Notes under the pieces: generated by a model
Seen by the model: only the letters and a program-made list of their open reading frames with translations
The model's database searches: none
What the model was told of the DNA's origin: nothing
Program-made: the position numbers and the translations under genes
Shown here: positions 951 through 52,460 of the stretch, piece after piece
Numbering within the stretch: the first letter of the stretch is position 1
How the letters are laid out: each line of letters begins with the position of its first letter
Assembly (NCBI RefSeq): GCF_024868665.1
Contig: NC_079890.1
Location: 37,496,504 to 37,560,503, forward strand
Direction of reading: 5' to 3'
Source: Triplophysa rosa
Taxonomy: Eukaryota > Chordata > Actinopteri > Cypriniformes > Nemacheilidae
Length of the DNA: 64,000 nt

Positions 951-3900
951 TCAGTCTTGACTTTGGCAGTATAAACTTCGGGACATCGGGCAGCAGCCTG
1001 CTTCCTCGTGTTTTGACAGGAGTGATATTCTGGAGAAGGTCTTTAAACAGCTTCGACACTGATATTTCTTGATCTCAGAGTGGGTTTGTAGATGCGCTCG
1101 AAGGTTTGACCGGTCAGCAAATGCGCGAGTGCAGTGCGGACAGGAGAACGGCTTTTCACCTGAAAAGAATACAAACAAATGCACATTAGGACTGTTTTGA
1201 TCATTTTCATTTTATGTACAGTGCATGTTACAATGCAAAGGTTCAGTTCAAATTATGTTGTAAGAACCAAAGCTATTATAGTTTTTTGTAGCTTTTTTTG
1301 TGGTTTTATGTTTTGTATTGTTTTTATTTAAATTTTAAGTTTACATTTTTAGTTTTCATGTTTATTTCAGATTTTTTTTAGCAATTTGTCACATGCTTTT
1401 GTCATTTGATTATTTTTGTTTACTTTATTTTATTTCTATTAAAGTTTTAGGTTAGTTTTATTTCCATTTCATCAATGTGAGTGCCTCAACTTAAACTTAT
1501 TTAACTTTATTGCTATGGCAACCAATCTTATTTCTTGTATAGTTTTACGTAAATACTATTTGATATCAATTTTTAAAACTGGTTGGCCCGGTTTCACAGA
1601 CTTAAAGTCCCTGTGATCCCTGTGAAAGTTGCGATCGTTTTTACTTCTGTATTTTGACGCATTTCCGAATGAAAGAGTGGGCGTGGCTTTCGTCTTTCTC
1701 TGCGAATTGATTGGATGTATAAAAACAGCCATTGCATTTTGAAATGGAACTGGCAGCAGACTGACAGCTGAAGGGGAGGAGTTAACGGATGCTCCGCCCA
1801 AGCCGCCTAACATACGTCATTTAATATGGATAGTCATTAGAGGACGGAAGTGCATTTTCAGATTTTAACTGAAGATTATGAGGGCACATGAATTTTAAAA
1901 AGAGAATAACCCACATTGATCAACTATTTACTATAAATGCTACAATATTTCATGAAAAAATAGGCACTGTCATTTTTAATTTCACTGGGAGTTTAAGCCA
2001 CGACTATGCCTTATTTAATTAAGATATTTGTGTCGCTTCTATAAAAATGCCTTAGAAGATACATTACTGGTGTCCATCTTGAAACAAAACAATGGCACTG
2101 ATATATTTTAAGATAATTCTAGGCAAGTTATAGTCAGTTACACATTAACGCTACTCTAGGACTAGCCTTAAACCTTGTCTGTGAAACCGGCCTGTAATTA
2201 CCCTAAAGACTCCCCTTGTAAGTCATATTAAATTGTGCTGTTGTTTTGATAAACGGTGAACTTTGGGCACGAAAGCACATTTAGGTATGATGTCCGAGCT
2301 GGCGCATCATCTCTGGCATGCCCTTACGAAAATGAACCTTGGCTTTACTACAAATAAAACCAAAACACAGATACTAGTTAAACCATGGTAACCACAAATT
2401 GACCCAGATTTTTCTACAGCAACCATTGTTTAACCGTGATATTTGTAGTCAAACTGTGGTCACAGTCCGCCCAAATAAACATGGTTGGTAAACGTTTACT
2501 GTAATAAAACCATGGGTAATTTTCTTAATAGTGTGACACAGTGAAGCAGAAGATTTTCAGTAAATTGCGTCCTCAAGTTTGGTTGGTCTGACTGGTGTGT
2601 TTGTAGCTTCTGGGTAATTAACCTTGTGTGAAAATGAGCCATTTATGCCAAACATCCCATTTTATGACATAAAAGCGAATGACAAAATATTTCACTTTAG
2701 GTTGAATTATTCCTTCCCATTTCAAAGCAGGAGATATAAAACCGACTACATTCTATATAAATCCCTGGGCATACCCGTGTGTGTGCGAATGTGTCCCTGA
2801 AGCAGCCATGGCCTGGAGAAGGCCTTTCCGCAGAGCTTACACACACAAGGCAGCGTGTGCGTTCGGATGTGCATCTTCAGCGCTCCGAGACTCACATACT
2901 CTTTATCGCAGTATTTACAGCTGAAGTACTTCTGGCACTGCCACTCACAGGGTAGATTCCTCTGCTTGCTCAGGCTAGAGAAGGTAAAGTAAGATTTCTG
3001 GCAGTCCAAACATCCGTCTCGGCGCTCCTGACCGCTGGTGCCCGGTTGTAATTGGGACACGGTGAGTTTTTCGTCTGGGTCACTGTGGGAATGCTGGAAG
3101 GGTTCTAGCGTTGAGAGCACAGGCTGCACGTCTCGCAGGGCGATGGGCGTCACGGGGTAAGTGAAAGCCAGAACCGGGCCGTCCATGGGCACACTCGGGT
3201 GCTGTGGAGGCAGGTACATCCCTGAATCGAGAGAGCCGATCGGTGCTGAGATCACATGATGTGGGGCGGGAAACACGGTTTGATGGGGATGCAGGGTTCG
3301 GAGTTTGGAGCTTGGAGATTCTGTCATCACCTCTGTGTGGAGACGTGTACGAAATATTATCAGTATAAACTGTGACATTCACTACATTAAAGGGTTTGCC
3401 GTTCAAATCTATCCTCTGATGAATTTATGCAACAATTCCCTAAGATTATTTCATACTGACACTTACGCATAATCCAATAATGCAATTTTGATCATTTATT
3501 CATGAAGTCTTACGTTGTTCCACAGCGCTTTTCAACACAAAAAGAGAAGTTTAGCAGAATCTTGTATGTTATCTGAGAAATTGAAATATAGTGCATGAGT
3601 CATCTTGGACGATCAAGATATAAAGCTTTTCGGCATTTGAAGCTTTGAAGCATTTGTCTTATCAAATTTGTCTTATTATTATTATTATTACTTTAAACAC
3701 ATTTATCTATTTAATATTTAAATCGTTTCAATAATTTTAATAAAGCAATTAAAAGAATAATCTGAAACCCTTGAAAAAGGCCATCAGGAAAGGCCACATG
3801 AGGACTGATAAAAAGAGCATGAGATTAAACGGATTATATTATGTCATACTATGTATGAAATAGTGGTGAACAAACTTGTAGATTTCAGGGCACTGCAGGA

Positions 3901-6989: not shown

Positions 6990-9900
6990 TTAATCCTCTC
7001 CACCTCCATACATGTCCGCCAGCTTCTTGAAGCGCGGGCCCCACTCATTGAGGAAATCATAGTCCTGGTCGTTCCCTGAGCTGGACGAGTGGAGAGAGCT
7101 AAGTGAACCGGCATCGGAGCCTCCACCTTCATAGTCAAACACCAGCAGGGAGTCGTAGGGAGGTGCGGTGGGGTCATTATCTGCGGCCTTCAGATTCTAC
7201 GGTGCAAAAAAGAATTGTATTTTAACTCTTCAGAACAAGACCTTTGAACTAAACCTGCATACACCTAACAATCACTTACGTCATCGATGAATGTGCCGAT
7301 CTCATCGGGGTTAGCAGGTCGAGGTCTGTACTGAGGTGCAGGCATAAAAGTTGGCATCTCATCATTTCTCATGATTCCTGGTCTGTTGTCCAGGCCTCTG
7401 TGCAGCACGCCTAAATCATAATCCTGTGAAAAATGAGTCATTTGATATGAATAAGGAACGACACCAGGAAAAAACACTACACAGTATAAACTGTTGTTCT
7501 AATACACCAATTTGTATAAACATTAAAAAAAGCACTTTGCAAAATACTCGCTCCTCAAGTGTCGTCACAAATTGAATCTCCATTTGACCGAGAACCACAA
7601 CCCTACAAAAATTAAACCAACCTGATCATCTTCCCCACCACCTTCCTCATCATAATAATAGATGTTGTCCCTGATGTCATCTTCAGGAAGAAGAGGCTCT
7701 TTTTTAACTCCACTCTTCCTCCGCAGGAACAAGAGGAGCAGAAGGAGCAGCACTGCAAAAGGAACAGTAATCACTTGAGATTCAGAAGCGTTACGCGAGC
7801 GCTGCATAACCTTTCCAACATTAGATGACACATGCTTTGCCCTTACAACCCCGAATTGGTTTTAACACAAGTTTGTGTACAGGTCAATGTAGGTCCCGAG
7901 ACAATCACTAAAATGGACTTAGGCATGTGCCGGTGTTCGGTAATACGGTACACCACGGTAGTGAAAATGCACAGTAGTGTTATTAATCATCACCATTACA
8001 TGGGTTCACTTACTAAAATCTAATATGGAGTAAAATATGTTTGTTTTATCATATTTAATTAAACGCCTGACAAATTATCAATAAGCTGTACTTTCTATTT
8101 ATTTCTTATTACTGGTTGATATTAGAAAAGGTTATTAAACTTTTTTTGATACCATTAAGGTCTTTGCACATACAGTCGGAAATTTTCGTATGCGTTTTTT
8201 CCCCCCATTTTTGGCGCTCGTTTGTACGGTGTCTTTGAATTGTCAAAACGCCTCGCAAAATGCTTGCTACGGATGCGAAAGATGCAGAAAATTGAACCGT
8301 CAGAATTTTATGACAAACGAAAATATCGGAGGCAGTGTGTACATGTGAGTCACACAACATGAGGTCGTATTTATTTTTTAATGTGCAGAAATTTCGGACG
8401 CAAATTTCAGACTCGATGTGCAATGGCCTTAACATTGATATTGGCTTATGTTTTTGTAATGCATTTCATCACCGTGATACTACCGTCTACCATAATAAAA
8501 GCTTCATCAATTACCAGAACTTAAAAATGCACTACCGGCACAAAGCCTGTTAGGAGTGGGAATCTTTTGATCCTCACAATTCGATTCGAACGTTTTAAAA
8601 ATAGATTTTTTAACATTTGTGAATAGATTCAGATACGCCCACATTGCATCCAAGAATGCATCCCTTGCTGCTGTTACTCATTTCTCATGCACGCTATGAT
8701 CCCTTCATATCAGTGGTGAACGGAAATACATACACAGCAGAGCCAAGATTGCACCGAGGATTCCGAGAACTCCAGACAGCGGTAACCCTGCTGCCAGCCT
8801 CTCAGTGCATCGAAAATCTTCTCCCTTGCAGTCACACACTGTGGCCTTAATCGTGTTGTCCTGATACAGGTCGCCCTGATCGAAAACTCTCAGGATGACA
8901 TTGTAGATGCCGGGCTCCAGTGTAGTCCTGAGCATCAGCTCTATTTTGGTTGCTGAAACAAGCAGATTGAAACCGTCAGGTCAGACACACCAGTTAAAGC
9001 AGCATGACTTTCCAGCTCATTTCTCTAGACATGTTAGTCAACTCTTACATTCTTCATTCATCCTGGCAGTCCAGTTTTTCTGGGTTTCTCCATGAGTGTC
9101 GACACGAAATGGACCGGCATGAGGCGGTCCGTCTTTATCCGTGATGGAGAGGATAGCAGGAAGCGCTTCACTATTACACATCTTTATTTCTCTTTCAGTA
9201 ATCGAGGGAGGGTTGTCATTCACATCCTCCAGATGGATGATCAGAGTTCCTGTGCCAGTCGCTGGTGCTTTTTCTGCACACAAGTACAAACTTATTAGAA
9301 AAGAAACAATAGTGTCCATATCAAGCCCCCAAACCAAAGAAACCCAACTTACCATCATCATCAACAGCCAGAAAGAGAGCTTTGTATTTGCCATCTATGA
9401 CCATGCCGGATTCTCTGTCCATTTGCTTCTTGACTTTGATCACTCCGGTTTCTTTGACAATATTAAACCAGCCGGCGGGATCATAGCCGATTCTATACCT
9501 GGAGGGTGGCGAAAGAAGCAGATTAAGACCAGCAAAGGAAATGAGTCATAACAAACGTTCAATGTCCGCTGTACAAGACTACAAATAAAAATGAAACCGA
9601 CTTCTTACGTTAACTTCTGTGATCTGGCAGTGTCTGGATCGACGGCTGTATAAGTAATCAATTCAGAATCAACAGCCAGATCTTCAGGTTTGTAAATGAC
9701 GTTCTCTTTTGGTTTGAATTCTGGAGGTTCATTCACATCCTCCACATTGACGGTGACTGTGGCAGTGGATGTGGGCAAAGAGCCGACAAACGGATCCTCG
9801 TTCTCAACAATCACAGACAGAATGTACTGCTTGGTCTTTTCATAATCCAGTGGCTGTACGGACAAGAACAGACAGCAAGTTACGGCATGTCACCACAAAC

Positions 9901-12900
9901 GATTCTATCCTCAACATTATGATCATTCTGTACCTTCACAGTGGTGATGATTCCCTCGAGCTGACTGGGTCCAGTACTGACATTGAAAAATCCTCCTTTA
10001 TCACCATTTATAATCTTATATTTTGTTGACCAGGCGGGTGATCCGGGTTCATCTCCATCAGTAACTGTGAGCTTGGCCACTACGGCACCAATTTGATTCT
10101 CTGGGACAGATGCTTCGTGCTGAAAACATAAAAGACTTATTGTAGAGGCATAGAATTATTCCTAGCTTTCTCTATGAAAGGTATACTAGTAGGGGTGGGG
10201 GTAAAATTTTATTCTGAGATGCATCGCAATTCTGAATCGATTCACAAATGTTAAAAAATATATTTTTAAATTGTTAATGTAATAAATGTGATGTTATCGG
10301 AACAAAAAAGCCAGGCCAAAGTCATTAGTAGAGTTTAGAGAGCACACATAGCTACAGCGGAGCATACACAAACAGTAGAGAAAGAAAAAACATCCAACAA
10401 AATAGACAAGAGACAGAGAAAGACCATCCAAAATCTGTGGAGTGAACAGCAGGGAGAAGCAGCGCATTTAATTCACTGTACCACAGCTGACCTCTCAATA
10501 AATTAGTGCAAATAGAGTTTCCTAAAACCTGTCACTGACTGTTTAGACACGCACGCACGCCATCACAAATAAGCTAATTACGTCAAGCATTGATTCTGAA
10601 TCGAATCATGACCCTTAGAATAGATTCTGAATCGAGTCGTGAGGGACTAAAGTATGGCTGGGCAAAAAAAAGATTTTTCAATTAATAGTTTTTTTTAAAT
10701 GCGGTCGATTCAATATTGATTCTCAAAAGCCATGAAGCGATTTTTTTTCATATTTCCGCAAACAATGAACACACTGCAAGAGATCATTACCGTGAATCTT
10801 ACTGCTACTACTTGTCTTCTCCACTAGATGTCACAACAGGGAGCCTATCCTTCATGCATTATAATCACCCAATTCTAAATGGCAATTTTGGAAATATCAG
10901 TTCAAATGTTCATTAAACAGCACCTATTTATATAAATATTGTTTAGGTGACTTTGTACAAATATATTATGCTAATATGAAATATAATGGAATTAACAAAT
11001 GGCACCCCTTGAGTAGTTTATATTAGGCCTACATTTAATTTTACTGTAATCAGCAATAATTCATTAATTATTCAACAATAATTGAACAAAAAGTAAAGAA
11101 TCCGTGGCCTCAAGAGACTTCCATACACAGCCACTAGATAGCGCATCCACATCATTCATCCAGCATTTGTACGCATTAATCCACATGTAATAAAGGTATT
11201 TGCAAACACTGCATGTTGCGGTTTTAGTTCATTTAAATGTATGCATTCAGTATTCGTATAGTTTCAAGCCATTAAATCGCAGAATGGCCTATTTTAGTCT
11301 CTGTATATAGATAATGTTAAGCATATCATACAGACGTCTCAACTTCCAGACTCAGGATTTTCTATGTACCTTACAAAACGCTGTTCAGTTCCCCACTTAA
11401 TTAAAAATGGGTACCAAAACAGCTGTGTTTGGCGTTTATTTTCACAGACTCTCTGAATACATAAAGAGAACTCGCAAAATTATGTTCTGAATGAAGCAGT
11501 CGCCCTACATTTATAAAAAGCATGTGCATGACGTAGAGAGCGTAGAAAGGATCCTGTTGGCCGGCTGTATGATGACTACGTGCACAAGCCCAATCCCCAC
11601 CTCCCAATCCAGTCACTTGCTAAAACTCTTGAACGTGTGGTATGTAACCAGCTCTCATCCTTTCTCACCCAGAACAACCTCCTGGACAGCAACCAGTCTG
11701 GTTTCAAGAGCGGTCATTCCACTCCGTCACTGAAGCCCTGAGACTGGCATGAGCCGCCTTTAACTCATCTGTACTTATCCTACTGGATCTGTCTGCCGCC
11801 TTTGACACCGTTAACCACCACATCCTCCTGTCGACCCTCAAGGCTGTGGGTGTCTCTGGAGTGGTGCTACAATGGTTCAGGTCTTACCTCACAGGTAGGT
11901 CATTTAGAGTATCCTGGAGAGTGTATTGAACCGTTCGGTACGACCTCCACGGTTCAATACACGCAAGTGAATTGCGGTTGTCCCGTTTTGCGTTTAAATT
12001 ATTTTTGTGCGCTTAATTACTTTCTGAACTGGTTCCGTCCGTGTTTGACTGCATGTCTGTGCACTAAGATAGATAAACTCATCCCCACGAGTAAATATCT
12101 AATGGCGAGTGGTGGTCGGGGGGTGAAGCGAGGCTGCCTGCAACACGAGAAGCAGCGTGCTGTTGAGTATAATGCTGACTAACAGATGCAGGCTGGCCAT
12201 CAGAAGCACCAGAACCTAGCGGCTTTATTGTATGCCCGTTGTACCAAAGTGATAATGTCCGAATTTGGCACATCAAGAATGTATTTCATCATGTGTTCCA
12301 CACTGCATACAAAAGCATCACGTTTGCGTTACTCCCAGCACACACACTCCCAGCACACGCAGAGAGGGCGTCTACAGCACCATGCCAAAGTCCGTTTAAC
12401 GAAAGTCATGCCACTCAGAGGCCTTTTGGACAGCTGTTAACGTCATAGCAAGAGCGCCTCCGGGCAGCTATTTAGCGTTGCATTTCTTCCAATTTATTGT
12501 AATGGCAGTGGCGCTCCTTGTTAATATATATTATCTTCGTCCTTTCCCATTGAGCGCTAATGTTTGCAGTGTAAAACGCATCGCATGTTTGTCTGTTTAC
12601 TTCCATTAAAATAACGTAATGCAAACTTGCGATTGCTGTAAATACTCTGATGCGCAAAATCTCCTCCAGAAGCTTATTTTATTGGCATGTTGATGAACAG
12701 TAAACTAAGTACTGCTGTGAGCTGCCAGTGTAAATCTGTACAATTATTTGATTTTTGCTTAAAGATAAGTAAAAGAAAGAGAATTGCAATAAAATAGTTT
12801 TTTTCTTAACTTCATACTGTTCCTGTCACACATGCATAAAATAATGAAAAACACTTTAATGTGCCAAGCCATCAGAACCAAACCGAAAACCGTGGGTAAA

Positions 12901-15900
12901 TAACCGAGGTACGCATTGAACTGTGGGTGAGCTGTATTGTTGCATCCCTAGTATGCATGCATTGAACCGAATCGAGAGCTTAAGAATCGAAAATCGAATC
13001 AGAACCTCTGAATCAATACCCAGCCCTAGACCAAAGGATTCCCACCCCTATGTACTAGAACACAATGGTGTATAAATCAGATTGAGATGAATGCACGTTA
13101 CCGTGGTTTGCTCAAACTGAGGTGCGTTATCATTGCTGTCAGTGACAGTAATAACAGCCGTGCCCGTCGTTGTCCAACCCTCTCCTCTCATATATGCAGC
13201 CTGAATTAGTAAAGTATATGTGCGGTGTTTCTGAAAGAGAAGATGTTCACATGTGAGTTTCTCTTTCATGAACTCATTCAACAGCACTTTAAGATACGGT
13301 CATCAAATGAATTCATTTCTCACCTCTCTATCCAGTCCTGTACCAATGACACGAATCCCTCCAGTTATGGTGTTGATATCAAACATATCTGGACTTGGTA
13401 ACGGAGGATCTTGGCTGATAATTTTGTATCTGACATCACCGTTATCAGTATTTGGATCATCTGCATCAGTGGCTGTGACCGTCATAAACTCATAATCTTC
13501 AGAGAGAAGATGGATATGTTCATACAAGCTGAAGCTTTACACACAAGAGCTCTAGATCCCATAATTCATGAAGTAAAATGAACACCAAAAGCTACCTTTT
13601 AGAGAAGCTTCAGGAACCTGTCCATTGAAAGGATTTTCAGTAAACACAGGTTTATTGTCATTCTGGTCAATCACATAGATGATGATATCAATTGGCTTCT
13701 CTTTTATGCCTCCTTCTCCAATAGCATAAGCTGTGAGCTGAAGACACGAGCATGTTAAGTGTCACAAATCTGTAAAGACTGCCGGTAAACATTCACAAGA
13801 TGACAGCTTTAAAATAACGTTTAAAGTATTTTTAATGTGGTATACTTGATTTGTAAACGTTTGAAATTAACACTAACTTTTTATGCATTTTGGCTGTTTG
13901 TTTACATGACAACGACATCTAATAGTTTTCCCAGATCCGTTTAAATGCAGATCGTTTTGTTGTGTGTATGTGAAACTTAAAATCTCTAAGGAAAAACATC
14001 CGTTTTACATCATGTACACATGGTCTAAATAGATCTATTCACAAAGCTGCTGAGAGCAACTTTTACTTTAGGATTGTTGTGATTTGGTCTTGGTGACTTC
14101 AGTCCTACTTTTCACAAATTTAGAAGCTGATTTTAGTACCAAAATGCTTTGTAAAAACACTCTTAGAACAAAAATGTCCTAAGTCCTAAATTTGGATCAT
14201 TAAGAGTTTCTCTGAATTTGCCAAGCTAGGAGCTACTATATACGATTTCATCTTAACAACAAACGTTACTGCGCATGCACACTTTTGTGACCCCAACTTA
14301 ACATCTGGTACACATTCAAACAATAGAGCGCCTGTAGATTATTTCTGATAACAATAAAACAAAACCGAGAACAACCGCTACTTGGCTAAACTTCTCTCCA
14401 ATATTTTGAATGTAGACTGCGATACCAAGCTCAACCACTAGACATCAGTGTATCATACGGTCTCTTTAAATGCAACCAAACTACAGGACCCATTCAACAA
14501 ATTGTTTATTTAATAAAATGATCATACAAAATTCAATAAATCAATTTAATAATTATAATATTTTATTATTATTATTATACAAATTAATTAAAATAAAATA
14601 AAATATAAAATAAATGGTTATATTAAACACTAGCCAAACCAAACCGGAAGTTAACTGGGAGTCAGACACGTGTGCGTCCTATGAAACGGTCTATAGTCTC
14701 AAGATGTTTTGCAAATACAGACCTGATCATGAATAAAGTTAAAAAATAACTTACATTATAGGAGGCTTTAGTCTCTCTGTCGAGCGGCTGTGTCACTGAA
14801 ATAGTCCCTGAAAATTTGTCACATATGAAAAAGCCCTTTGGTGGCAGATCTGCTCCTTCACCTGTGATACTGTACGTCATCGTAGTTTCTGAGGCAAAAT
14901 CTGACTTGATCTAATGACAGAGAGACACAAACTCAGTAACACAAACCCTGTTTTAATGACAAAAGTCATTTTGATGATGTTCACTTACCTTAGAAAGCGT
15001 TCTTGGGAAAGGACCTCTGCTGTTCTCCGGTTCATTGAAAGGTGGAATAACCCAACCTCTCTTTGCTCTCTTTAGTCCTGCTGAAGACCTTGGAAACTTC
15101 ACAATCACCAGATCGTCAGAGGAAGATTCCATCTGGGAAGAAAATGTTTTTAATGGTATGTACTGCTCTGCTTTAAATGCTGTAGAGAGCTACTTCAAAA
15201 GCATTAACAACTCCATTTATAGTATGACTTCTGAAACAATACCATCCCCCATTATTTGGTCCTTTTTTACCAAACACCTCTTTGATATTTCTAGTTTAGT
15301 AGTACCATTGAAACGTAAAGCATCAAAAACATTGCATTTTATATTAAAAGCAGCAATTTTTTTCAAGGCCTTGCAAGTTTTGTACAGAAAACTATGAGTT
15401 CAAAATAGTGTTTCAAGTCTTTCAGATTAATTTGAAAAGGTTAACAGAAAACAATTATTTAGTTGGACTGCACCTGTTACATTGTTGTGTTCGTTGCTGC
15501 ATGCAACCAGAGGGACAATACAATAAAAAGCGCTGGTTTAATGCCCAATTTGTTTAGGTGTCAACTAGGGCTGTGACGGTGGCCGTGACAACCGCACCAC
15601 CGCGGTGGTAAAGTGCCACGACAGTGGCAAACTGCCACCGGCGGTAGTGCACGTCACTCTCACAAATATAGGTATAATAAATATGAGAGTTGCGATAACG
15701 ATTGCCAATTGTAGCCTTTCAGTTGTGGATGGTTTTATTTAAAAGATTTTACATTAACTGAAATAACTGGGTTACGCGACTGACTGAAGTTGTCACTGCA
15801 ACAAGAGCTTTTTTAATTAAATATTTCACTTATATCATTTGAGTTTTCATTATTTACCAATGTTTATTTAAATGTTTCATATGCTGTAGTGTGCCGTTTC

Positions 15901-18372
15901 ACTGATGGATTCGCGCATTAAACATTGACGGATGTTTCATTCTCATTTATTTCAGATATCATATTTCAATTTCAAGTATCTAACTATTTAACAATTTCAA
16001 GTATTTAAATAAGTTATATATTTCTCTTCCGCTCGTCATGTGGTTGCTACACGCAAATATAATATAATAAATATTATTTAGATAAATAATACACATTTCT
16101 CAACCACCGCAGATGATTTGTCCATTACCACGGTGGTGGTAAAAAACTGCCACCGTCACAGCCCTAGTGTCAACTCTTACATGACATGCAATTCAGACCG
16201 CTCATACCTTAAACGAGAAAGAAAACGCACCCAGTATGTGTTTTTAAAAGGAGTCGGTTCAGATAAAGAGCTCGCTCTTGATTCCCAATACTAACCACCA
16301 CACACAAACTAAATAGCTCAAAATGTCCAGAAGAGGTCAGGCTTGGATGCCTGTACCCTACAGAAACTTGCATGTACCTGTGGAGTTGTGTTCACCACAG
16401 TATCCATATGATGACCCTCATGATGGTGAGCACGCTCAACTCTGACAAACACTGTGTGCTTTTTGCCAATGGAGTCCCAAGCATGTACAGAAAACACCTT
16501 ATGACCCTCATGAAGAGTGACCCGTCTCTTCAGTGTTAAAGTTCCTTCTGTGTTCACATCAAACCGCTTGTCGGCGGACTGAAAGAGTGTTCTCGATCTT
16601 CCATCGCACGTATTGAACGTTACTGCCAGAGAAAGACACAAAGCACAAAATTAGGACGGGTTTCTATACTGTCGCTTTCTTGTCTCTACTGCATGTACAT
16701 GTACATCTCAATTTCAAATTTTTGCTTCATTGTTAAATAAATGCCTTAAAAACCTTTTTTGCAATTAACATCTTAGTCGTTTAAAACATGTTGTACTGTA
16801 GTATTAAACATCCAATCAGAGAAAACCAAATGCAATGTTCTACATTCTTCAGACTACTTTAGTTTGACTGAAGTTACTAGATCCTGTGTTTGACTCCAGA
16901 TTCAATTTGCAATGTTCAGGTTTGTTTTGCTTGCGGTGTTGCTCACAAGCATGTTATACAACCTACAACGGTCCTCTGCTATAGAAAGATGATAATGACT
17001 ATGATGATAATGACGACTAAACATGTATAGACACTTAAACACTCGCTTCACACATGTATTGCATCGACCACCATTAGCGGTCTGTGCAGAGGAAGTGGTT
17101 AACCCATCAACCCATTCAAAAAAGACCACGAGTAGGACAAGCAGGGCACACGCTGTGCTGGGAAAAACTATAGATCAAGTGGAATCCAAAATAAAAAATA
17201 AAAAAAACTTTAAAATGGGTCAGGTAAATGTATTAATAATTTTGTTTTTTGACGCCATTTTAAATTTTAAATTATTTTTTTTTTAAATAAAAATGTGGGT
17301 CAATTAAACTCCCATCTATTATTAAATATTCTGAGTTATGACCATGAAAGCGAAACTGTGCACTTCGGATGGCATAACTATTCTTGGGAAGCACCTGCAT
17401 TATTGCACAGTTAGTTGTTCATCATGACACAACATGTCCAAGATGAGTCAATGCACCAAAACCCTTTTGCACACAATATGGACTCTGTGCCCACGGATAA
17501 TGGTTAAAGAGAGTTAACCACGTACACCACCCAAGTTAGGTATGAAAAAGTTACATTTTAAACGTCTCAAACGTAAGCGAAAAATCCTCAAACTCTCAGC
17601 CCAGTTCCCTATTGAGGTGTTACAGACGGTTTTCATCCACACCCACAGAAACCGTGAGCGATATGGGTGAAATGCATCCGAATTAACCAACCATTAACAT
17701 TTCAAAACCGCTGCAAAGTCTCTGAAGATTTCGATCCAGACACACACCAAAACGAGAGTTACAAAAGCTGTGCATTTTCTACATCTATTTTAGGATTATT
17801 AATGGGGTTAAATCTTCCATCCATGACAGGCACCAAAGCTCTTCACAGAGGCCGCGAATTAAAAATAAAACACCTGAATGAGTTACGACGGTTACGGGTT
17901 TGAACTTCGGAGCTAGCGCGAGGATCAAAAATGGCTGAGGAGAGCACAAACTTAACCGAGATCGACAGAAAACTTTTCAAATATGCTAAATTTCTACAAG
18001 TAATACACAAATTGTTTAACAAATTTAATGAACTAACAAATCTTCAAGTAATTTGAAGGCTTTTAAAAAGGATTGTGGGCGTCTCACCTTTTCCTAGTCT
18101 TTTCCCCTTATGAAGGTGCTCTCTGTGCACTTGAAACACAAATAATTCCGACTCAAAGCCAGGTGTGCATGGCGACTCCTCGGCAAATCCACACGAAAGT
18201 ACCTTATTGAGTAAGAAAATAAAAACATACATATGAACTTAACGGACAAAGCAAATACTTTCGTTCTGCGGAACCGCTCGAGCGCTTTCGCGACTCGACT
18301 TCGCCCGGTGGGAAATCTTACCTGACAAAGAAAAACAATAACTCCTAATCGTACGATCCTCACAGGCTCCAT
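6990..18372 (-). CDS. cdh1: E-cadherin (classical type I cadherin-1), complete 16-exon gene, copy A
   Basis: This is a calcium-dependent homophilic adhesion protein of adherens junctions. Coding exons run 18372-18322, 18202-18088, 16622-16378, 15132-14989, 14910-14755, 13737-13596, 13496-13324, 13230-13102, 10119-9934, 9853-9609, 9498-9353, 9273-9049, 8952-8734, 7752-7622, 7423-7280 and 7196-6990. They total 2658 nt with every phase closing, giving 885 aa (human CDH1 has 882). Residues 1 to about 22 are a signal peptide, followed by a prodomain ending at the furin site RAKR162. The mature protein starts GWVIPP with the strand-swap Trp164. EC1-EC5 carry the calcium motifs PEN, LDRE, DQNDN and DSNDN; the mammalian HAV tripeptide position reads YAI. 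The membrane-proximal CDCK cysteines, a Leu-rich membrane helix at about 713-735, the p120-binding region ([13 protein letters not shown]) and the beta-catenin-binding tail ending [10 protein letters not shown] are all present. One intron holds a 2.9-kb transposon nest. Partial copies B, C and D lie upstream. Confidence 0.95.
7919..8640. repeat. Transposon-derived repeat in cdh1 intron 14 (between exons 13 and 14)
   Basis: A segment of about 620 bases begins AGGCATGTGCCGGT (7919 on) and ends near 8550 with a near-inverse, ACCGGCACAAAGCCT, which suggests degraded terminal repeats. It is directly followed by a fragment (about 8551-8640) starting with the AGGAGTGGGAATC and ATTCGATTCGAA words that also occur in the hAT-like element at 10190-13050. 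No coding capacity is seen. Confidence 0.45.
11585..11905 (+). pseudogene. Fragment of a LINE reverse transcriptase (L2-like)
   Basis: Frame-broken translation gives the reverse transcriptase landmarks [47 protein letters not shown] and [19 protein letters not shown] contains the first catalytic Asp region of non-LTR retrotransposons of the L2/Rex kind. The piece is truncated at both ends and frameshifted near 11735, so it is dead. It sits inside the hAT-like element. Confidence 0.8.
11921..11962. repeat. Perfect 13-bp inverted repeat (hairpin)
   Basis: GTGTATTGAACCG (11921-11933) is mirrored exactly by CGGTTCAATACAC (11950-11962) across a 16-base loop. A related GCATTGAAC word recurs near 12913, so this is probably the end of a further nested repeat. 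Confidence 0.6.
15566..16166. mobile_element. hAT-like MITE with a perfect 8-bp target duplication in a cdh1 intron
   Basis: The ends TAGGGCTGTGACGGTGGC and GCCACCGTCACAGCCCTA are inverted repeats. They are flanked on both sides by GTGTCAAC (15558-15565 and 16167-16174). The GC-rich ends contain stacked ACCGC/GCGGT words, while the centre is AT-rich with no coding frame. Its length of 601 bp and the 8-bp duplication support a non-autonomous hAT element. Confidence 0.85.
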
Positions 18373-28102: not shown

Positions 28103-31100
28103 TTAGCGGCTTTTCCTATTCACGAACACGATGAGCAGGATGAGCGCTGCGATAGAAACATAATGATTATTCAGTGGAATCAATTCATCTATGATTACAT
28201 AATTGTAACAATGTTCAAAGTAAAGGAGGAAGGAGGCGGGAACCGGTGAACATTAAATCAACTTTTAATAAAATAAACAAAGCATAAACCAAAGTAAAGG
28301 GCCGGCAGCCACCTCACGGACGACTGCCGGCTACACAAACATAACTAAAACACATACAATGTCCAAGCAATATGGGTCCTGCAATGAGAATTTCACTGAA
28401 GGATGGGCTGCTGTTACTCAGTAAAATAAAAATGCAAATCAGTGTAAAAGCATGAATGGAAATACATACAAAGCAGAACCAAGATGCCACCGAGGATTCT
28501 GAGAACTCCAGACAGCGGTAACCCTGCTGCCAGCCTCTCAGTGCATCGAAAATCTTCTCCCTTGCAGTCACACACTGTGGCCTTAATCGTGTTGTCTTGA
28601 TACCTGTCGCCCTGATCGAAAACTCTCAGGATGACATTGTAGATGCCGGGCTCCAGTGTGTTCCTGAGCATCAGCTCTATTTTGGTTGCTGAAACAAGCA
28701 GATTGAAACCGTCAGGTCAGACACACCAGTTAAAGAAGCATGACTTTCCAGCTCATTTCTCTAGACATGTTAGTCAACTCTTACATTCTTCATTCATCCT
28801 GGCAGTCCAGTTTTTCTGGGTTTCTCCATGAGTGTCGACACGAAATGGACCGGCGTGAGGCGGTCCGTCTTTATCCGTGATGGAGAGGATAGCAGGAAGC
28901 GCTTCACTATTACACATCTTTATTTCTCTTTCAGTAATCGAGGGAGGGTTGTCATTCACATCCTCCAGATGGATGATCAGAGTTCCTGTGCCAGTCGCTG
29001 GTGCTTTTTCTGCACACAAGTACAAACTTATTAGAAAAGAAACAATAGTGTCCATATCAAGCCCCCAAACCAAAGAAACCCAACTTACCATCATCATCAA
29101 CAGCCAGAAAGAGAGCTTTGTATTTGCCATCTATGACCATGCCGGATTCTCTGTCCATTTGCTTCTTGACTTTGATCACTCCGGTTTCTTTGACAATATT
29201 AAACCAGCCGGCGGGATCATAGCCGATTCTATACCTGGAGGGTGGCGAAAGAAGCAGATTAAGACCAGCAAAGGAAATGAGTCATAACAAACGTTCAATG
29301 TCCGCTGTACAAGACTACAAATAAAAATGAAACCGACTTCTTACGTTAACTTCTGTGATCTGGCAGTGTCTGGATCGACGGCTGTATAAGTAATCAATTC
29401 AGAATCAACAGCCAGATCTTCAGGTTTGTAAATGACGTTCTCTTTTGGTTTGAATTCTGGAGGTTCATTCACATCCTCCACATTGACGGTGACTGTGGCA
29501 GTGGATGTGGGCAAAGAGCCGACAAACGGATCCTCGTTCTCAACAATCACAGACAGAATGTACTGCTTGGTCTTTTCATAATCCAGTGGCTGTACGGACA
29601 AGAACAGACAGCAAGTTACGGCATGTCACCACAAACGATTCTATCCTCAACATTATGATCATTCTGTACCTTCACAGTGGTGATGATTCCCTCGAGCTGA
29701 CTGGGTCCAGTACTGACATTGAAAAATCCTCCTTTATCACCATTTATAATCTTATATTTTGTTGACCAGGCGGGTGATCCGGGTTCATCTCCATCAGTAA
29801 CTGTGAGCTTGGCCACTACGGCACCAATTTGATTCTCTGGGACAGATGCTTCGTGCTGAAAACATACCGACTTGTGTGTAACAATTGTTGTAATAATTAT
29901 GTATAAATACTATATATAAATATTCTAAAAAGCTACCTGTTTGCTCAAACTGAGGTGCCGTTATCATTGCTGTCGGTGACAGTAATAACAGCCGTGCCCG
30001 TCGTTGTCCACCCTCTCCTCTCATATTTGCAGCCTGAGATTAGTAAAGTATATGCTGTTCTTGAAAGAGAAGATGTTCACATGTGAGTTTCTCTTTCATG
30101 AACTCATTCAAACAGCACTTTAAGATACGTCATCAAATGAATTCATTTTCCACCTCTCCTACCAGTCCTGTACAATGACACGAATCCCTCCATTATGGTG
30201 TTGATATCAAACATATCTGGACTTGTAAACGGAGGATCTTGGCTGATAATTTGTATCTGACATCAGCGTTATCAGTATTTGGATCATCTGCATCAGTGGC
30301 TAGTGACCGTCATAAACTCATAATCTTCAGAGAGAAGATGGATATTTCATACAAGCTGAAGCTTTACACACAAGAGCTCTAGATCCCATAATCATGAAGT
30401 AACATGAACACCAAAAGCTACCTTTTAGAAAGCTTCAGCGAAACCTGTCCATTGAAAGGATTTTCAGTAAACACAGGTTTATTGTCATTCTGGTCAATCA
30501 CATAGATGATGATTTCCATTGGCTTCTCTTTTATGCCTCCTTCTCCAATAGCATAAGCTGTGAGCTGAAGACACGAGCATGTTAAGTGTCACAAATCTGT
30601 AAAGACTGCCGGCAAACATTCACAAGATGATAGCTTTAATTAAAAAAACTCAAGCATTTTGATACATTTGAGGTGTTTTAACTTCTGGTGCATTAGATTT
30701 TTGATCTGATTATGAGTAAGGTTTAAAGTTAAAAATAACTCACAGTATAGAAGGCTTTAGTCTCTCTGTCGAGCGGCTGTGTCACTGAAATAGTCCCTGA
30801 AAATTTGTCACATATGAAAAGGCCCTTCGGTGGCAGATCTGCTCCTTCACCTGTGATACTGTACATCATCGTAGTTTCTGAGGCAAAATCTGACTTGATC
30901 TAATGACAGAGAGACAAACTCAGTAACACAAACCCTGTATTAAATTGAAAAAATCATTTTGATGATGTTCACTTACCTTAGAAAGCGTTCTTGGGAAAGG
31001 ACCTCTGCTGTTCTCCGGTTCATTGAAAGGTGGAATAACCCAACCTCTCTTTATTCTCTTTAGTCCTGCAGAGAACTTCATAACCAGATCAGAAGATTTC

Positions 31101-31439
31101 ACATGGGAAGCCAAAATATTTGAATTATAGAGATATTAAATCTGCTTTTACAAAACATCAACAAACTATTTACTTAAAAATATAAAGCAGCATTTAAACT
31201 TAGTTTTGTTACTGTAAACACATTTGCAGCAATCTATGGTGTCACGAATACAGACATTCAAACACTGTCGTCCTCTCCCAACATTTAAAATAATTATAAC
31301 ATACGTGCAAATAGTGTAAAAACATTTGTTTTTAACTTTGCTAATACATCATTATGAGGTTTTGGAACATTCCCTGTTATAAAATATAAAATGCTACCTG
31401 TAAAAGGAAAATAATAATTCCCAGTCGCACAATGATCAT
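28103..31439 (-). pseudogene. Damaged partial E-cadherin copy B
   Basis: Exon 1 (31439-31398) encodes the signal start MIIVRLGIIIFLLQ. Exons equivalent to 2 and 3 are missing. Exon 4 (about 31108-30977) keeps the furin site RIKR and GWVIPP, but the acceptor CCCAG seen in the other copies is lost. Exon 5 (30899-30744) is intact. Exons 6 (30564-30422), 7 (30324-30154) and 8 (about 30061-29938) carry several one-base indels and altered splice sites. Exons 9-13 (29855-29670, 29589-29345, 29234-29089, 29009-28785, 28688-28470) match copy A at a constant offset of 19736. No exon for the p120 or beta-catenin tail follows. A candidate last exon at 28146-28103 would add LILLIVFVNRKSR and then a stop. 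As written the gene cannot give a full product. Some damage may be assembly error. Confidence 0.7.
28205..28370. repeat. Possible LTR or SINE fragment inside copy B
   Basis: This GC-rich block has GCCGGCAGCC and GACTGCCGGC words and an A-rich AATAAAATAAACAAAG tract. It differs from its surroundings and lies between exon 13 of copy B and the candidate terminal exon. The class is not certain. Confidence 0.35.
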
Positions 31440-40385: not shown

Positions 40386-41608
40386 AAGAGTTCAGGAAAC
40401 ATAATTTAGCGAAACCATTGCCATGGCAGTACTACACGTGTGTTGTGTTGACACGCCGGACAGAACGAGGTGGGGTTCGCTGTTACTCATTATCAGTTAA
40501 AGAGACATGCACCAAAACGGGTTGCTGTGAGCAAAGCTGTTTTTGACGAGGCAAGAAGGGTTTTGTTTACACAGCCATTGAGTGTTTTTAAGCAAAATAT
40601 GTTCCAGACATTTCATGAAGACCCTAATAAATCATACCAACTTGTTGAAAGTGCTCATGAAATGAGTCCTTTAAGTTAAGATCATGTTCCATGAAGATAT
40701 TTTGATATTATATTTCCTACTGTAAATATATTAAAACTTTATTTTTGGGAGTGGATGCAGCAAAATTGCTAACAAAATGGCCAGAAACACGCATTAAAAC
40801 ATCCCTCGCTGATGCCCGCTCTTCGGGAATTACCCACTCAAGTGTGGTATCTATGTAAATTTCTGCTTTCAGGTTCATCTATTCTCCACAACGTCATTAC
40901 AGCGGTAAAACAAACCCGTTTCTTTGTAGCAACGGCCTGCTACAGCGCCCTTGATAAACAACTTCAAAGGTGATTTTCTCAATATTTTTATTTTTTGCAC
41001 CCTCAGATTCCAGAGTTTTAAACAGTTGTATCTCAGCCAAATATTGTCCTGTCCTAACAAACCGCACATCAATGGACAACTTATTTATTCAGCTTTCAGA
41101 TTATGTATAAAGCTCAATTTAGAAAAATTGACCTATAAGACCCATAAGTTTTAGAATACCTGTGTGATCAAGCTACCATCACCTCGGCCATGACATTTCA
41201 CTATGCTTCTTGGACATTTTAAGGTTTAAACAAAGCTGAGAATTCCCCCAAAATGAAATCTGTCAGGTGTGACCACTAAATTATTTGGGCTGTATTGGCT
41301 AGCCCTTCAATATGCCCTGTCCAAATTGTTCCAGTACTGTGCTAAAGGTCCAGTGTATGAAATTTAACAGCATCTAGTGGTCGGGTTTGCAAACTGCAAC
41401 CAACAGCCTCGTGTAGAGACGTAGAGTTGGCACGCAAAAATGAGCAATTTCTGTTCATTTCAAGCTCAGAGAGTAAAATATTGTCTGGAATATAGGTTGC
41501 TGAGGGACTATGTGGTATCCTGCATGTTCCTTTTCTTTCCAGTGCACGTTAGTTCATAAAAAAACTCTCTCAAATAAATCAGTCATGTACAGATACAGTC
41601 ATCAAATG

Positions 41609-42997
41609 AATTCTTTTCTCACCTCTCTATCCAGATTTGAAGCATTTTTAATGTGGTGTTTACATACAGTGTAATAGGCTTTTCTCTCTCTGTCCAGTGG
41701 CTGTGTCACTGAAATAGTCCCCGTGAATCTGTCACATCTGAAAAGGAGATCTGCTCCTTCACCTGTGATACTGTACGTCATCGCAGTTTCTGCAGCATAA
41801 TCGGACTTGATCTAATGACAGAGAGACACAAACTCAGTAACACAAACCCTGTTTTAATGACAAAAACCATTTTGATGAGAAAGCGTTCTTGGGAAAGGAC
41901 CTCTGCTGCTCTCCGGTTCATTGAAAGGTGGAATAACCCAACCTCTCTTTGCTCTCTTTAGTCCTGCTGAAGACCTTGGAAACTTCACAATCACCAGATC
42001 ATCAGAGGAAGATTCCATCTGGGAAACCAAAATGTTTGATTTATATGGACATAACAGATTTGCTTTAAATAATATTAGAGGCACCTCAAGACATTTTCCA
42101 GTTTGCTCGCTGGTTTTAATGAACAGCTTGGCCACCTTTAGTATGATGAGAAGAATGAACTTTTCAAATGAACCATTAAAAGATTTTGTTTTTAGGAAAG
42201 AGCTGCAAAAGGCTTCTACCCTTACAGAAACTTGCACATTCCTGTGGAGCTGAACTCTGACAAACACTATGTGCTTTTTATGCAACTGTCTCTTCAAATT
42301 TTTACATTTTTTAATTTGAATTGTATTATTATTATCATTATATGGCTTGCTTGTGTATTTGGATGTGAAGCTTCAGTTTCTCAGAAAAAAATCCATGTGT
42401 GTGCAAGCACTCTTGGCAATAAATATTTCTTTCCTGATTCCAACACATTAGTACAATCATTAATACTTCTAATAAACCAATAAAACATTTTTAAAGAATC
42501 CCAAAGACTATACAGACTAGATCCAAACTGTTAACAAGCACTTGACCATTTTACAATGAAATAATGGTCAGAACAATTCTGAGAATCGTTGTTTACATGG
42601 TGCTTTAGGTGTCAATCATTTAAGTCATTAAAATAATTTAATTGTCAGATAAATATAATTTAAATTCAATTGCGTTAAATGATGTTTATTAGGCCTATAC
42701 TTATAAATTTAGGCAAGCAACTGGCCTTAAGTTTTTACACTGAACACATTTGCAACACTCAGTAGTGTCATGTTGTAAAACGAGACACGTCTTTTAGGCG
42801 TCAAAACAATATTTACATGACATTCAAACAATGCATTATGTGAACTGATTTAAAATATGAACATCATTTCAAATGATGTAAAAAACATTTGTTACTAAAA
42901 CAAAAACATCTGTTTCTTGGAGCACTGCCTGTTACGAGGGTTAAAATCCTACCTGAAAAAAAAAGAGAATAATAACTAATAATTGCACAATGATCAT
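41609..42997 (-). pseudogene. E-cadherin partial copy D
   Basis: Exon 1 (42997-42953) encodes MIIVQLLVIILFFFQ with a good donor. A fragment of prodomain exon 3 remains around 42218-42290. Exon 4 (start 42018) keeps the furin site RAKR and [10 protein letters not shown], but a deletion removes its donor; the frame runs on into HQNGFCH and stops at 41854. Exon 5 (41811-41668) keeps phase but lacks four residues. A short piece of exon 7 abuts near 41609-41636. Exons 2, 6 and 8-16 are absent. The parts remain collinear with copy A, so this is a decayed tandem duplicate. Confidence 0.75.
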
Positions 42998-43797
42998 GGT
43001 CTCGGTGAACGTTCAGCTCGTGCAGCTGCTGATCTGAAGGGAACTGAAAGAGATTTACAACATGTGATGTTGATCCTCCTTCTGCTCGTTTTTTGAGGCT
43101 GGGCCACATCCATTGTATAAAAGACGAATAAAACCAACTAAAAATGAAAAATTCAATAATTTGCTTACATTTTTAGTTAATTATGAAATGCAGCAAAATG
43201 GTCCAGTAAATAAAACATATTTTGCTGAACCACAGCCACCTCAAAAACCATCGAAGGATCTTAGTTTTTAAATGTTGTGTTGAGTAAGAAATAAAAAAAG
43301 AATGTGTGAAAAACTACAAGAAGAAGGACACAACTTTAAGAATCCCCAACTCCGATCCACCCAGATATGGGCGTGGCTTCTGACATCACACTTGGATGTA
43401 GGCGCGTTGGATGTCACGTGGGCCGTGCAAGACGTCCACCGCGGGATGCAGCGAGCCCTACTTGTGTAATTATTTGGAACAGAGTTAGCATTGTACTTTA
43501 TTTTCCAAACCGTCTGCAACAAGCGCAAGCCCCGCCCCTTAGCTGATTTCAAAGATTTTATTGGTCACCTTGGATTTGTTTCAAAGCATTTTATTCCTTA
43601 ACAGGACAGAGCAACAGAGAAGTGTTGAAAGTGCTGTCCATCTGTTAAATAGAGTAAACAATACTTGAGTATGAAAAGTAAAAAAGATGAGGAATGCTTG
43701 CAATAGTGATATAGAATAATGGATATAACACAGATTATGAGGATGTTTGCAAGCAAATTTGCTAAAACAATGAAATCTGTGATTCAATCCGCTTTTC

Positions 43798-46272
43798 TTA
43801 TTCTTGTTCATCATCCTCCACATTGACGGTGACTGTGGCAGTGGATGTGGGCAAAGAGCCGACAAACGGATCCTCGTTCTCAACAGTCACAGACAGAATG
43901 TACTGCTTGTTCTCCTCGAAGTCCAGAGGCTAAATGCAAAAGACATATCATTTCTATATTATTTTCATTTGTGTCTTCTTAACTGTCGTGTCAACATTAT
44001 GATCATTCTGTACCTTCACAGTGGTGATGATTCCCTCGAGCTGACTGGGTCCAGTACTGACATTGAAAAATCCTCCTTTATCACCACTTATAATCTTATA
44101 TTTTGTTGACCAGGCGGGTGATCCGGGTTCATCTCCATCAGTAACTGTGAGCTTGGCCACTACGGCACCAACTTGATTCTCTGGGACAGATGCTTCGTGC
44201 TAAAAACATACACGACTTGGGTTGTAACAATTGTTGTAATAATTATGTATTTAAATACGTATTATAAATATTCTAAAAAGCTACCGTGGTTTGCTCAAAC
44301 TGAGGTGCGTTATCATTGCTGTCGGTGACAGTAATAACAGCCGTGCCCGTCGATGTCAAACCCTCTCCTCTCATATATGCAGCCTGAATTAGTAAAGAAT
44401 AAATGAAGAATTTCTGAAAGAGAAGATGTTCACATGTGAGTTTCTCTTTCATGAACTCATTCAACAGCACTTTAAGATACGGTCATCAAATGAATTCATT
44501 TCTCACCTCTCTATCCAGTCCTGTACCAATGACACGAATCCCTCCAGTTATGGTGTTGATATCAAACATATCTGGACTTGGTAACGGAGGATCTTGGCTG
44601 ATAATTTTGTATCTGACATCACCGTTATCAGTATTTGGATCATCTGCATCAGTGGCTGTGACCGTCATAAACTCATAATCTTCAGAGATTGGGAAATACA
44701 AGTGGCGTAATTTAAAAAAGCCTTCGCAACCGACTATTGTCTGTACTTAATGCAACGATTTAATATAAAACAGAATCTTAAAAGTATAAATATTAATAAT
44801 CAGAATTATCAGGAGGTCACACATTATGTTTTTGGCACGTGTCAAGAGGACCTTAGTAAAAAATGTCATTCAAAATTTGTCCTGTGGGGATGAAGAACGC
44901 ACGAGTCCTGTGTGACGGCTCAGTGTCTACAGTTGAAAAAACCCTAGTTCGCCCCAAAATTTTGTCATCATTTGCTCGCCACCCAGTTGTTACAAACCTG
45001 TATACATTTCTTTGTTGTGCGGAACACAAATGAAGCCGTTTTGGGTCACCAAACATTGGATGAAAGATTAGGATGCTTTTTATGAAAGAAACTTCATAAA
45101 TCACCCACCCTTTGAAGCGGCGTCAGGAACCTGTCCATTGAAAGGATTTTCAGTAAACACAGGTTTATTGTCATTCTGGTCAATCACATAGATGATGATT
45201 TCCATTGGCTTCTCTTTTATGCCTCCTTCTCCAATAGCATAAGCTGTGAGCTGAAGACACGAGCATGTTAAGTGTCACAAATCTGTAAAGACTGCCAGCA
45301 AACAAGACAACAACTTTCAAAGAACTCAATCGTTTTAAATCTAAAATCATCTGATCATGAATAAAGTTAAAAATAACTTACATTATAGGAGGCTTTAGTC
45401 TCTCTGTCGAGCGGCTGCGTCACTGAAATAGTCCCTGTGAATTTGTCACATATGAAAAGGCCCTTTGGTGGCAGATCTGCTCCTTCACCTGTGATACTGT
45501 ACGTCATCGTAGTTTCTGAGGCAAAATCTGACTTGATCTAATGACAGAGAGACACAAACTCAGTAACACAAACCCTGTTTTAATGACAAAAGTCATTTTG
45601 ATGATGTTCACTTACCTTAGAAAGCGTTCTTGGGAAAGGACCTCTGCTGTTCTCCGGTTCATTGAAAGGTGGAATAACCCAACCTCTCTTTGCTCTCTTT
45701 AGTCCTGCAGACTCTTCCGCAAACCCACACGAGAGTGCCTGATCAATAACAAGTGAAGTCTTTAATGTGACATATTTACCTTTTGTTATTTACCTTATTC
45801 TGAATAATAAAACATCCATCAATGAATGTGAGCTGCTTAGAGTCAGTCATTTCACATTTGAAAAGGCGGAATGTATGAAGAAGGGGCGTGACTAATTCTG
45901 TTTTTAAGTCTGGTGAAATTCCAGAAGGGTTAAAATCTCTGCTTTCGGGAAACATCAGAGCTGTTTGCTCATGAGAAACCCGGGTTTCTAGTCTGCACCC
46001 CTGCTTTAATGTCACTATCCTATAAAAAAGACAAAAATCTGTGCAAGTTAACGTTTCTGCTATTTCAACATATTTGCAATAACTCAGTGCTTAAATGTGA
46101 TTAAGATAGTTCCTTTTCAAACAACGTTACAATGTTGCAATCTTCTAGCGGCAATGTTACATTACAATACAATGTTTCGATACATGATTTAAAGGAACAT
46201 TCTCTGTTATGATGGATAAAATCCTACCTGAAAAAGGAAAAGTCCCAGTCGTACAGTTAGCATTGCCTCCAT
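43798..46272 (-). CDS. Prodomain-less, membrane-less E-cadherin-like protein (copy C), predicted secreted EC1-EC3
   Basis: Coding exons are 46272-46228, 45738-45616, 45537-45382, 45250-45109, 44679-44507, 44413-44285, 44199-44014 and 43929-43798. They total 1086 nt with all phases closing, giving 361 aa. Residues 1-15 ([15 protein letters not shown]) plus ALSCGF form a signal sequence. Exon 2 reads AEES and then joins exon 4 at AGLKRAKR, so nearly all the prodomain is gone while the furin site stays in frame. The mature part starts GWVIPPF (Trp35), with the PEN, LDRE, DQNDN and DSNDN calcium motifs intact. EC3 ends VNVEDDEQE and stops; copy A continues [14 protein letters not shown]4, EC5, the membrane helix and the tail are missing. 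AATAAA signals follow on the minus strand near 43590 and 43560. An open frame through eight exons argues for selection or very recent origin. Expression is unknown. Confidence 0.65.
44925..45062. mobile_element. Truncated TTAA-type MITE in a copy C intron
   Basis: The words AGTTCGCCCCAAAATTTTGTC, ATCATTTGCTCGCCACC and AACCTGTATACATTTCTTTG match the left half of the MITE family seen at 47177-47504. The right half is missing. Confidence 0.55.
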
Positions 46273-50805: not shown

Positions 50806-52460
50806 ATGATGACAAGCAGCAAAACGACTTTAGCTTTCTTCATTTACGGACTCCTCGTGCACTGCAGCGTATGTTCCCCTCTCAGCTATCCAAACGTCAG
50901 GTAAGATCTGTCTCACCTACAGCACCAGACCCGTACCGTGCGCCCTTGGCGCTATTTGGGTTGTTCGGTTTAATTGGGTTTTATTGCCAGAATTAATAAT
51001 ACATTGCAAGAGTATTATTGGATTTTCGCTTAGTCTTGTGTTTAATCCGTGCCACGAATAAAAAAATTATCACTGATCAATTAAAGAATTGCTTTGCAAT
51101 ATGCGTTAAACATTTGCAGTAACACCTGTACCGCTATGGCTGTTATATACTTCTGTATGAAATGACTCAGTGTCTCGTTGCAGAATGGAGACGGAGGGGT
51201 TCGAGGACGGCAACTCATTACCGGATCTAACCTTTGACAGTGACCAGATTTCTTTTGCAAGCTCTCCTTCAGTTACTGACGACACGTACACGTTATATTA
51301 TCCTCCCTCGAAAAGGTGAATAGCAGAACTCTCGTTGCCGAAACGGGACCCTCTCTGCGTCATAAGCGACGATTGCGTTTTTAAGATGTTTGATCAGCGT
51401 TTTGAAAGATATAATGTGCGTCTTTTTATGTTTCCAAATTACTGGACATTCTCTGTTTGTCATTTGGTCGCGCAGAATGGAAAGGCACGCTGACGGGATG
51501 TTTAATAAAGCATACAGAAAAGCGCTCGGCCAGATGTCGGCGAGGAAATACCTGCATGCACTGATGGCAAAACGCGTGGGGTAAGAACATCATTATCTCA
51601 TAGCATCACTTCCAGCTCCTTGTCTGACATCATGATTGTGCTGGGAGTTTTAGCAAAATCTTACAATCTGAAAAATTAAGGCAGTAAAAGGTTATTTGTA
51701 TGGTTCCATAAAGAACATTTACATTCATTAATCCTTTTTATTGCGCAAAAATGTTCTTAGTAGTGGGAAAAAAGTTTCACAGACTATAAAAAGCACCTTT
51801 ATTTTTCCAGGTGCCCCACTTCAGATCAAGTTCCATATTATTATTGTTGTTAATATAGCCTAACAATGTATGCTCGTTATGTGCTTTAGAAGTGTGCATG
51901 CGTCAAATACATCCTGAAAGAATTCTCTATCTTATCTATATTCTTTAAAAATAAGTATCTTATTACGGAACAAATGGAGGTTACGCGCAGAGCGCGCGGG
52001 CTTACAAACAGTTAAGGCTGAACGCAACATAGCGCAAGACGCCTTTTAAGCTCTCTACGTTAAAATATCAAACTGATGTAAACTATTTAACTTCACCCAC
52101 GTTCTGAAACGCGACCCCAGACGTCCTTCTGACGCGTCTGCACAAAGACGCAAAAACGGTGCGTAATTGTTACTTTGCTTCCCGTGGCGCATTTCCAGCA
52201 CAAACGCGACTTTTTATGAAGTACTGTATATAAAAATGCTGGAGTGTGACGCGTTGGCGTTTGTCTTTTCTTTGCGCAGAGGAGGCAACACGATAGAGGA
52301 GGACGAGCCGCTGTCCAAGCGCCACTCGGACGGGGTTTTCACGGACAGCTACAGTCGCTATCGGAAGCAAATGGCTGTCAAGAAGTATCTGGCCGCAGTC
52401 CTGGGCAAAAGGTATAGACAGAGATATAGAAGCAAAGGACGGCGGCTCGCCTATTTGTAG
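50806..52460 (+). CDS. adcyap1: PACAP precursor (PRP/GHRH-like peptide and PACAP-38)
   Basis: Coding exons are 50806-50900, 51184-51315, 51476-51580 and 52280-52460, with closing phases and a 170-aa prepropeptide. Residues 1-24 or so ([17 protein letters not shown]...) are a signal peptide. The PACAP-related peptide begins [12 protein letters not shown] at residue 80. PACAP-38 spans 126-163, beginning [16 protein letters not shown] and ending RYRQRYRSK. It is preceded by the KR cleavage site and followed by GRR, the amidation and cleavage signal. The C-terminal LAYL matches the IAYL ending of mammalian precursors. PACAP acts on PAC1/VPAC class B receptors and raises cAMP. Position 5 is Val where mammalian PACAP has Ile, and the last residues differ conservatively. 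The gene lies on the opposite strand from the cadherins. Paralogue a or b is not resolved. Confidence 0.95.

Follow-up and report, generated by a model that had tools for sequence, protein, structure and literature searches.

The E-cadherin-like gene on the minus strand at 46272-43798, here called copy C, is probably a converted and rearranged partial tandem duplicate of a neighbouring complete E-cadherin gene, copy A, without a settled function. Positions refer to the window, the whole stretch of 64,000 nucleotides that was analysed (C1:37496504-37560503). Copies B and D belong to the same cluster. The other members are placed as follows.

6990..18372, minus strand: copy A, complete E-cadherin gene in 16 exons, its 885 aa including prodomain, membrane helix and cytoplasmic tail
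28453..31439, minus strand: copy B, partial duplicate that has its own exon 1, is frame-broken by indels and matches A at 99.1% along 1414 bases
41591..42997, minus strand: copy D, relic that has an exon 1 of its own and whose EC1 exons are damaged

Pfam finds the prodomain, cadherin domains and cytoplasmic domain in copy A; among the matches listed, the only match in the window to the cytoplasmic domain (PF01049) belongs to this copy. Among solved chains, copy A scores best with one of Xenopus EP-cadherin in which the tail is included (787 bits). Against ectodomain chains it scores 498 bits with cadherin-1, 479 with EP-cadherin and 458 with cadherin-2. Since copy A is a complete E-cadherin, copy C is a truncated tandem duplicate.

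The genome search ran over 685 Mb in 1038 contigs and scored 113 of its 736 candidates. Among the genome matches listed, all those of at least 73% identity fall in the window, and none outside it exceeds 40%. The contig sizes (C1 40 Mb, C24 16 Mb, C25 18 Mb, C26 1.4 kb) suit 25 chromosomes.

The first-pass annotation had joined eight exons of copy C in frame, and this model is confirmed. All seven introns are GT-AG, and 1086 nt encode 361 aa and a stop. The parts of the gene, with the hexamers that follow it, are these.

46228..46272, minus strand: exon 1, with the start codon and the core of the signal peptide, donor GTAGGATT; homologous exon 1 in A, B and D
45616..45738, minus strand: exon 2, the start of ancestral exon 2 (45738-45709) fused to exon 4, prodomain deleted
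45382..45537, minus strand: exon 3, EC1
45109..45250, minus strand: exon 4, end of EC1 to start of EC2, its 3' end a diverged patch
44507..44679, minus strand: exon 5, EC2, identical to A
44285..44413, minus strand: exon 6, end of EC2, diverged from A near its start
44014..44199, minus strand: exon 7, EC3, donor phase 0
43798..43929, minus strand: exon 8, end of EC3, stop after VNVEDDEQE
43497..43595, minus strand: three AATAAA hexamers beginning at 43595, 43562 and 43502, 3' of the stop

In the fused exon 2, the run identical to copy A begins at 45708. Exon 8 diverges from A in its first 25 nt and its last 15 nt or so. The gene is A-like through GTGGAGGATG; beyond that it leaves A, and the stop comes after the four codons DEQE. 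The 3' flank beyond has no other match in the window or in the further genome loci searched. The three AATAAA hexamers lie within 598 nt of the stop, and since about 1.6 AATAAA or ATTAAA hexamers per 600 nt are expected from the window, they are weak evidence for a 3' end. Intron 4 contains a dispersed repeat (45100-44690), which recurs near 59.4, 21.5 and 23.8 kb and at other genome loci. The seven GT-AG introns rule out a processed pseudogene.

The product had been described earlier as a secreted EC1-EC3 protein with no prodomain, membrane helix or tail, and this description matches the encoded sequence. The predicted protein consists, in order, of a signal peptide, the site RAKR, the mature start GWVIPP, three cadherin domains and a stop in the EC3-EC4 linker. 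The mature protein would have 328 aa and a mass of 35.6 kDa. Pfam (E up to 0.01) recognizes three Cadherin domains (PF00028), the other listed family falling below its cut-off. At the same threshold it finds neither a cytoplasmic domain nor the prodomain Cadherin_pro (PF08758), which it finds in copy A at 3.1e-22. The mature sequence has no strongly hydrophobic stretch, its best 19-residue hydropathy being 0.79, compared with 3.39 for the membrane helix of A.

Both processing sites needed for the correct mature N-terminus are retained. The furin-type site RAKR sits behind a short leader, with an estimated 11 residues or so between the likely signal cleavage and RAKR, and cutting there would give a GW N-terminus, as in copy A. 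In cadherins, according to excerpts of PMC5097364 and PMC9491697, removal of the prodomain gives the adhesive form, in which Trp2 enters a pocket of the partner.

The earlier claim that this Trp and the calcium motifs are kept is only partly right. Trp2 is present, as are most of the motifs (PEN, LDRE, DQNDN, DAD, DSNDN and DGD), which presumably have their usual calcium-binding roles. There are two exceptions. Where EC2 begins, a conserved Glu has become Asp in copy C (VPDAAS; VPEASL in copy A), and the EC3-EC4 linker motif is gone (VEDDEQE compared with VEDVNE).

Compared with a type I classical cadherin, copy C thus has the tandem EC repeats, Trp2 and, with these exceptions, the calcium motifs. 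However, it lacks the set of five EC domains, ending at the EC3-EC4 linker, and with EC4 and EC5 it also lacks the prodomain, the membrane helix and the catenin-binding tail. Its residues 21-358 align to EP-cadherin (357 bits) and residues 33-357 to cadherin-1 (350 bits). Because it is homologous to solved E-cadherins, copy C likely has an E-cadherin-like fold, and its predicted anatomy would suit a soluble binder.

One feature of EC1 is common to parent and duplicate. E-cadherin has HAV in EC1 in the excerpted text of PMC5097364, whereas A and C both read AYAI. In the EC1 of copy A (14755-13596) and in copy C, YAI stands in place of HAV. If copy A is the sole E-cadherin of the species, its EC1 departs from the textbook HAV motif.

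The similarity between copies C and A is uneven. Near-identical tracts alternate with patches that are diverged or cannot be aligned. In four alignable blocks there are 75 mismatches in 1373 positions, 33 of them in 1004 coding and 42 in 369 non-coding positions. Identity is uninterrupted for 249 bases (45708-45460) and again for 278 bases (44688-44411). Introns 2 and 5 fall inside these two runs and have 0/78 and 0/93 mismatches; intron 7 has 37/80. In a permutation runs test (10000 permutations), the longest run was 214 bases, and none of the 10000 reached the run observed in copy C. The two longest runs account for 347 of the 1086 coding bases, and all runs of at least 60 bases identical to A together account for 743.

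Clustering of the differences between paralogues, introns included, is a mark of gene conversion and is found in copy C. The mosaic probably reflects recent conversion, and the donor would most likely be copy A because A is the intact gene. Copies A (8717-10130, which takes in the end of exon 13 at 8734) and B (28453-29866) share a gap-free tract of 1414 bases at 99.1% identity, through exons and introns, and the 5' half of B is broken. Homogenisation or recent duplication therefore happens in this cluster. Copies A, B, C and D hardly differ in exon 2, so that the whole cluster has been homogenised there.

In intron 8 and around exon 1, copy C is closer to copy B than to copy A. Intron 8 is identical in B and C at 75 of 81 aligned sites, plus a few gaps, whereas that of copy A is 2982 bases long and starts differently. 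In all four copies exon 1 encodes a hydrophobic leader, the exon 1 starts of B and D having been worked out by hand. Around this exon, comparisons among B, C and D give 58/197, 88/220 and 100/263 mismatches; those of B, C and D with A give 109/221, 148/264 and 163/302. The common intron 8 therefore groups C with B by descent, with part of C overwritten by A-like sequence.

Two other origins can be rejected. A recent whole copy of A would not have unmatched introns 1 and 4, unmatched flanks, a diverged exon 1 and a B-like intron 8. A haplotype duplicate is excluded because, outside the tracts, the two sequences are too different.

These features suggest the following history. Copy C would be older than its A-identical tracts imply. 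One deletion joined ancestral exon 2 to exon 4, bringing the end of the signal peptide up to the furin-type site and taking out the prodomain. The exon encoding the EC3-EC4 linker was broken, which cost the gene everything past EC3 and supplied the stop codon. Stretches of EC1-EC3 may then have been refreshed recently by repeated gene conversion, with A as the most likely donor, in which case the frame would be open mainly through overwriting by functional sequence. If transcribed, copy C would yield a secreted EC1-EC3 fragment of 328 aa, most likely an incidental one, and the copy itself would be without function.

Another model for copy C, considered unlikely, is a working germline gene for soluble E-cadherin. 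Its product would be secreted and cut at RAKR, and its EC1 would strand-swap with cellular E-cadherin as a decoy or signal. On this model, both the missing prodomain and a stop so close to a domain boundary would be kept features. In its favour, copy C has an intact frame of 361 aa with all splice sites and three cadherin domains, behind a retained signal peptide and furin-type site, with Trp2 in place. In mammals, shed ectodomain is proposed to act as a decoy for immune cells (PMC6857109, in the excerpt available). However, EC3 of copy C lacks its distal calcium linker, and the open frame is largely accounted for by the runs identical to A.

The first-pass annotation had proposed the decoy or signal role. 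The encoded product is the one it predicted, but the intact frame does not establish a maintained role, given A-identical runs that extend through introns and a ratio of substitution rates without significance. Across 332 codons, the comparison of C with A gives 10.5 synonymous changes (dS 0.0473) and 21.5 non-synonymous ones (dN 0.0286). The resulting dN/dS is about 0.6 and is not significantly below 1; the excess of synonymous changes has a binomial P of 0.18 (10/32) or 0.10 (11/32). Because recent conversion from A explains the frame without selection on C, an intact frame is weak evidence of function.

Three further observations hint at constraint on copy C. The first is the absence of indels. 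A contrast between the open frame of C and the broken frames of B and D had been noted, and it stands: copy B has frame-breaking indels, and copy D lacks one splice donor as well as 12 nt of EC1. Relative to A, exons 2-6 of copy C have 16 substitutions and 0 indels, and those of copy B have 20 substitutions alongside 11 indel events, of which 8 break the frame. A Fisher test of these 8 against none in C gives P 0.018, in a count where 2 of the 11 events in B, neither frame-breaking, arise from piece edges set by the analyst and some others may be sequencing errors.

The second is found in the unconverted tail of the signal peptide, where 10 codons hold 5 synonymous and 1 non-synonymous changes (P 0.004, for a segment picked post hoc and near saturation). 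The third comes from the 19 residues that differ between C and A, compared by eye with two outgroups, Xenopus EP-cadherin and human E-cadherin. C has kept the residue common to both in 6 cases and A in 2; only one outgroup is matched by C in 2 cases and by A in 5; and 4 are uninformative. With agreement at 8/19 for C and 7/19 for A, copy C is therefore not faster-changing than A.

A variant of the working gene is slightly less probable. Here a soluble, prodomain-free EC1-EC3 gene would be held in step with A by ongoing conversion, with a matching binding face, and would act as a dedicated competitor of adhesion.

The mosaic could also, though improbably, be an artefact of assembly or polishing. 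Near-identical paralogues are difficult to polish. Consensus errors and misplaced polishing reads would then account for both the tracts in which C equals A and the indels of B, and the true copy C may be more decayed. The form of the damage in B is consistent with this, since 7 of the 8 frame-breaking indels in its exons 2-6 are one base long and several lie in short single-base runs. One-base indels are numerous in copy B at 30333-29939, and they may reflect either true decay or errors in the long-read consensus. However, introns 1 and 4 of copy C and its 5' and 3' flanks are unlike A, its intron 8 is that of B and its exon 1 is diverged; the locus is therefore not a doubled A. Finally, it is highly improbable that copy C serves as an alternative 5' module of the E-cadherin gene. 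Transcripts would then begin at exon 1 of C, with its exon 7 (phase 0) spliced to exon 10 of A (phase 0) to give a full-length prodomain-less E-cadherin with EC1 to mid-EC3 from C. C lies upstream of A on the same strand and the phase 0 junctions are compatible, but splicing would have to jump about 34 kb past exon 8 of C and the AATAAA hexamers, and past both D and B.

Other genes are found around the cluster and in related places of the genome. A second type I cadherin lies at C1:37.10 Mb and presumably resembles cdh15. A divergent type I cadherin paralogue at C12:22450279-22455698 has a cytoplasmic tail that is off the usual consensus. In the window, an open frame on the plus strand (52167-52460) has a Pfam peptide-hormone match at 1.4e-11 and is taken here to read like PACAP; an adcyap1-like gene is therefore probably present upstream of copy C, on the opposite strand. 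Downstream of copy A, a C2H2 zinc-finger frame on the minus strand (2746-3378; Pfam zf-C2H2, 1.9e-11) is presumably Snail-like. Snail proteins repress E-cadherin in other animals. Searches of the window gave no Rfam match and no tRNA.

Partial tandem duplicates homogenised by gene conversion are a known kind. Copy C, under the preferred reading of a converted partial duplicate, is like them in its mosaic of near-identical and diverged sequence within a same-strand cluster. It differs in that a truncated copy has kept an open frame, a signal peptide and correct processing sites. A functional parallel would be soluble E-cadherin, an 80-kDa form which, as excerpted from PMC6857109, is shed by proteolysis of the full protein. 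The likeness lies in a predicted extracellular fragment without a membrane anchor, known in copy C from sequence alone. The shed form is proteolytic, whereas copy C, a separate locus, would encode a shorter EC1-EC3 piece. Among the open-access papers listed, none describes a truncated E-cadherin gene encoded in the germline; the phrase "tandem duplicate" in the excerpt of PMC8288041 refers to another gene.

An expressed copy C would amount to a natural gene for what mammals obtain by shedding, and conversion by the parent gene would account for the way such a decoy keeps up with its target. An unexpressed one would show that gene conversion can hold the frame of a truncated copy open, so that in tandem clusters an intact frame says little about function.
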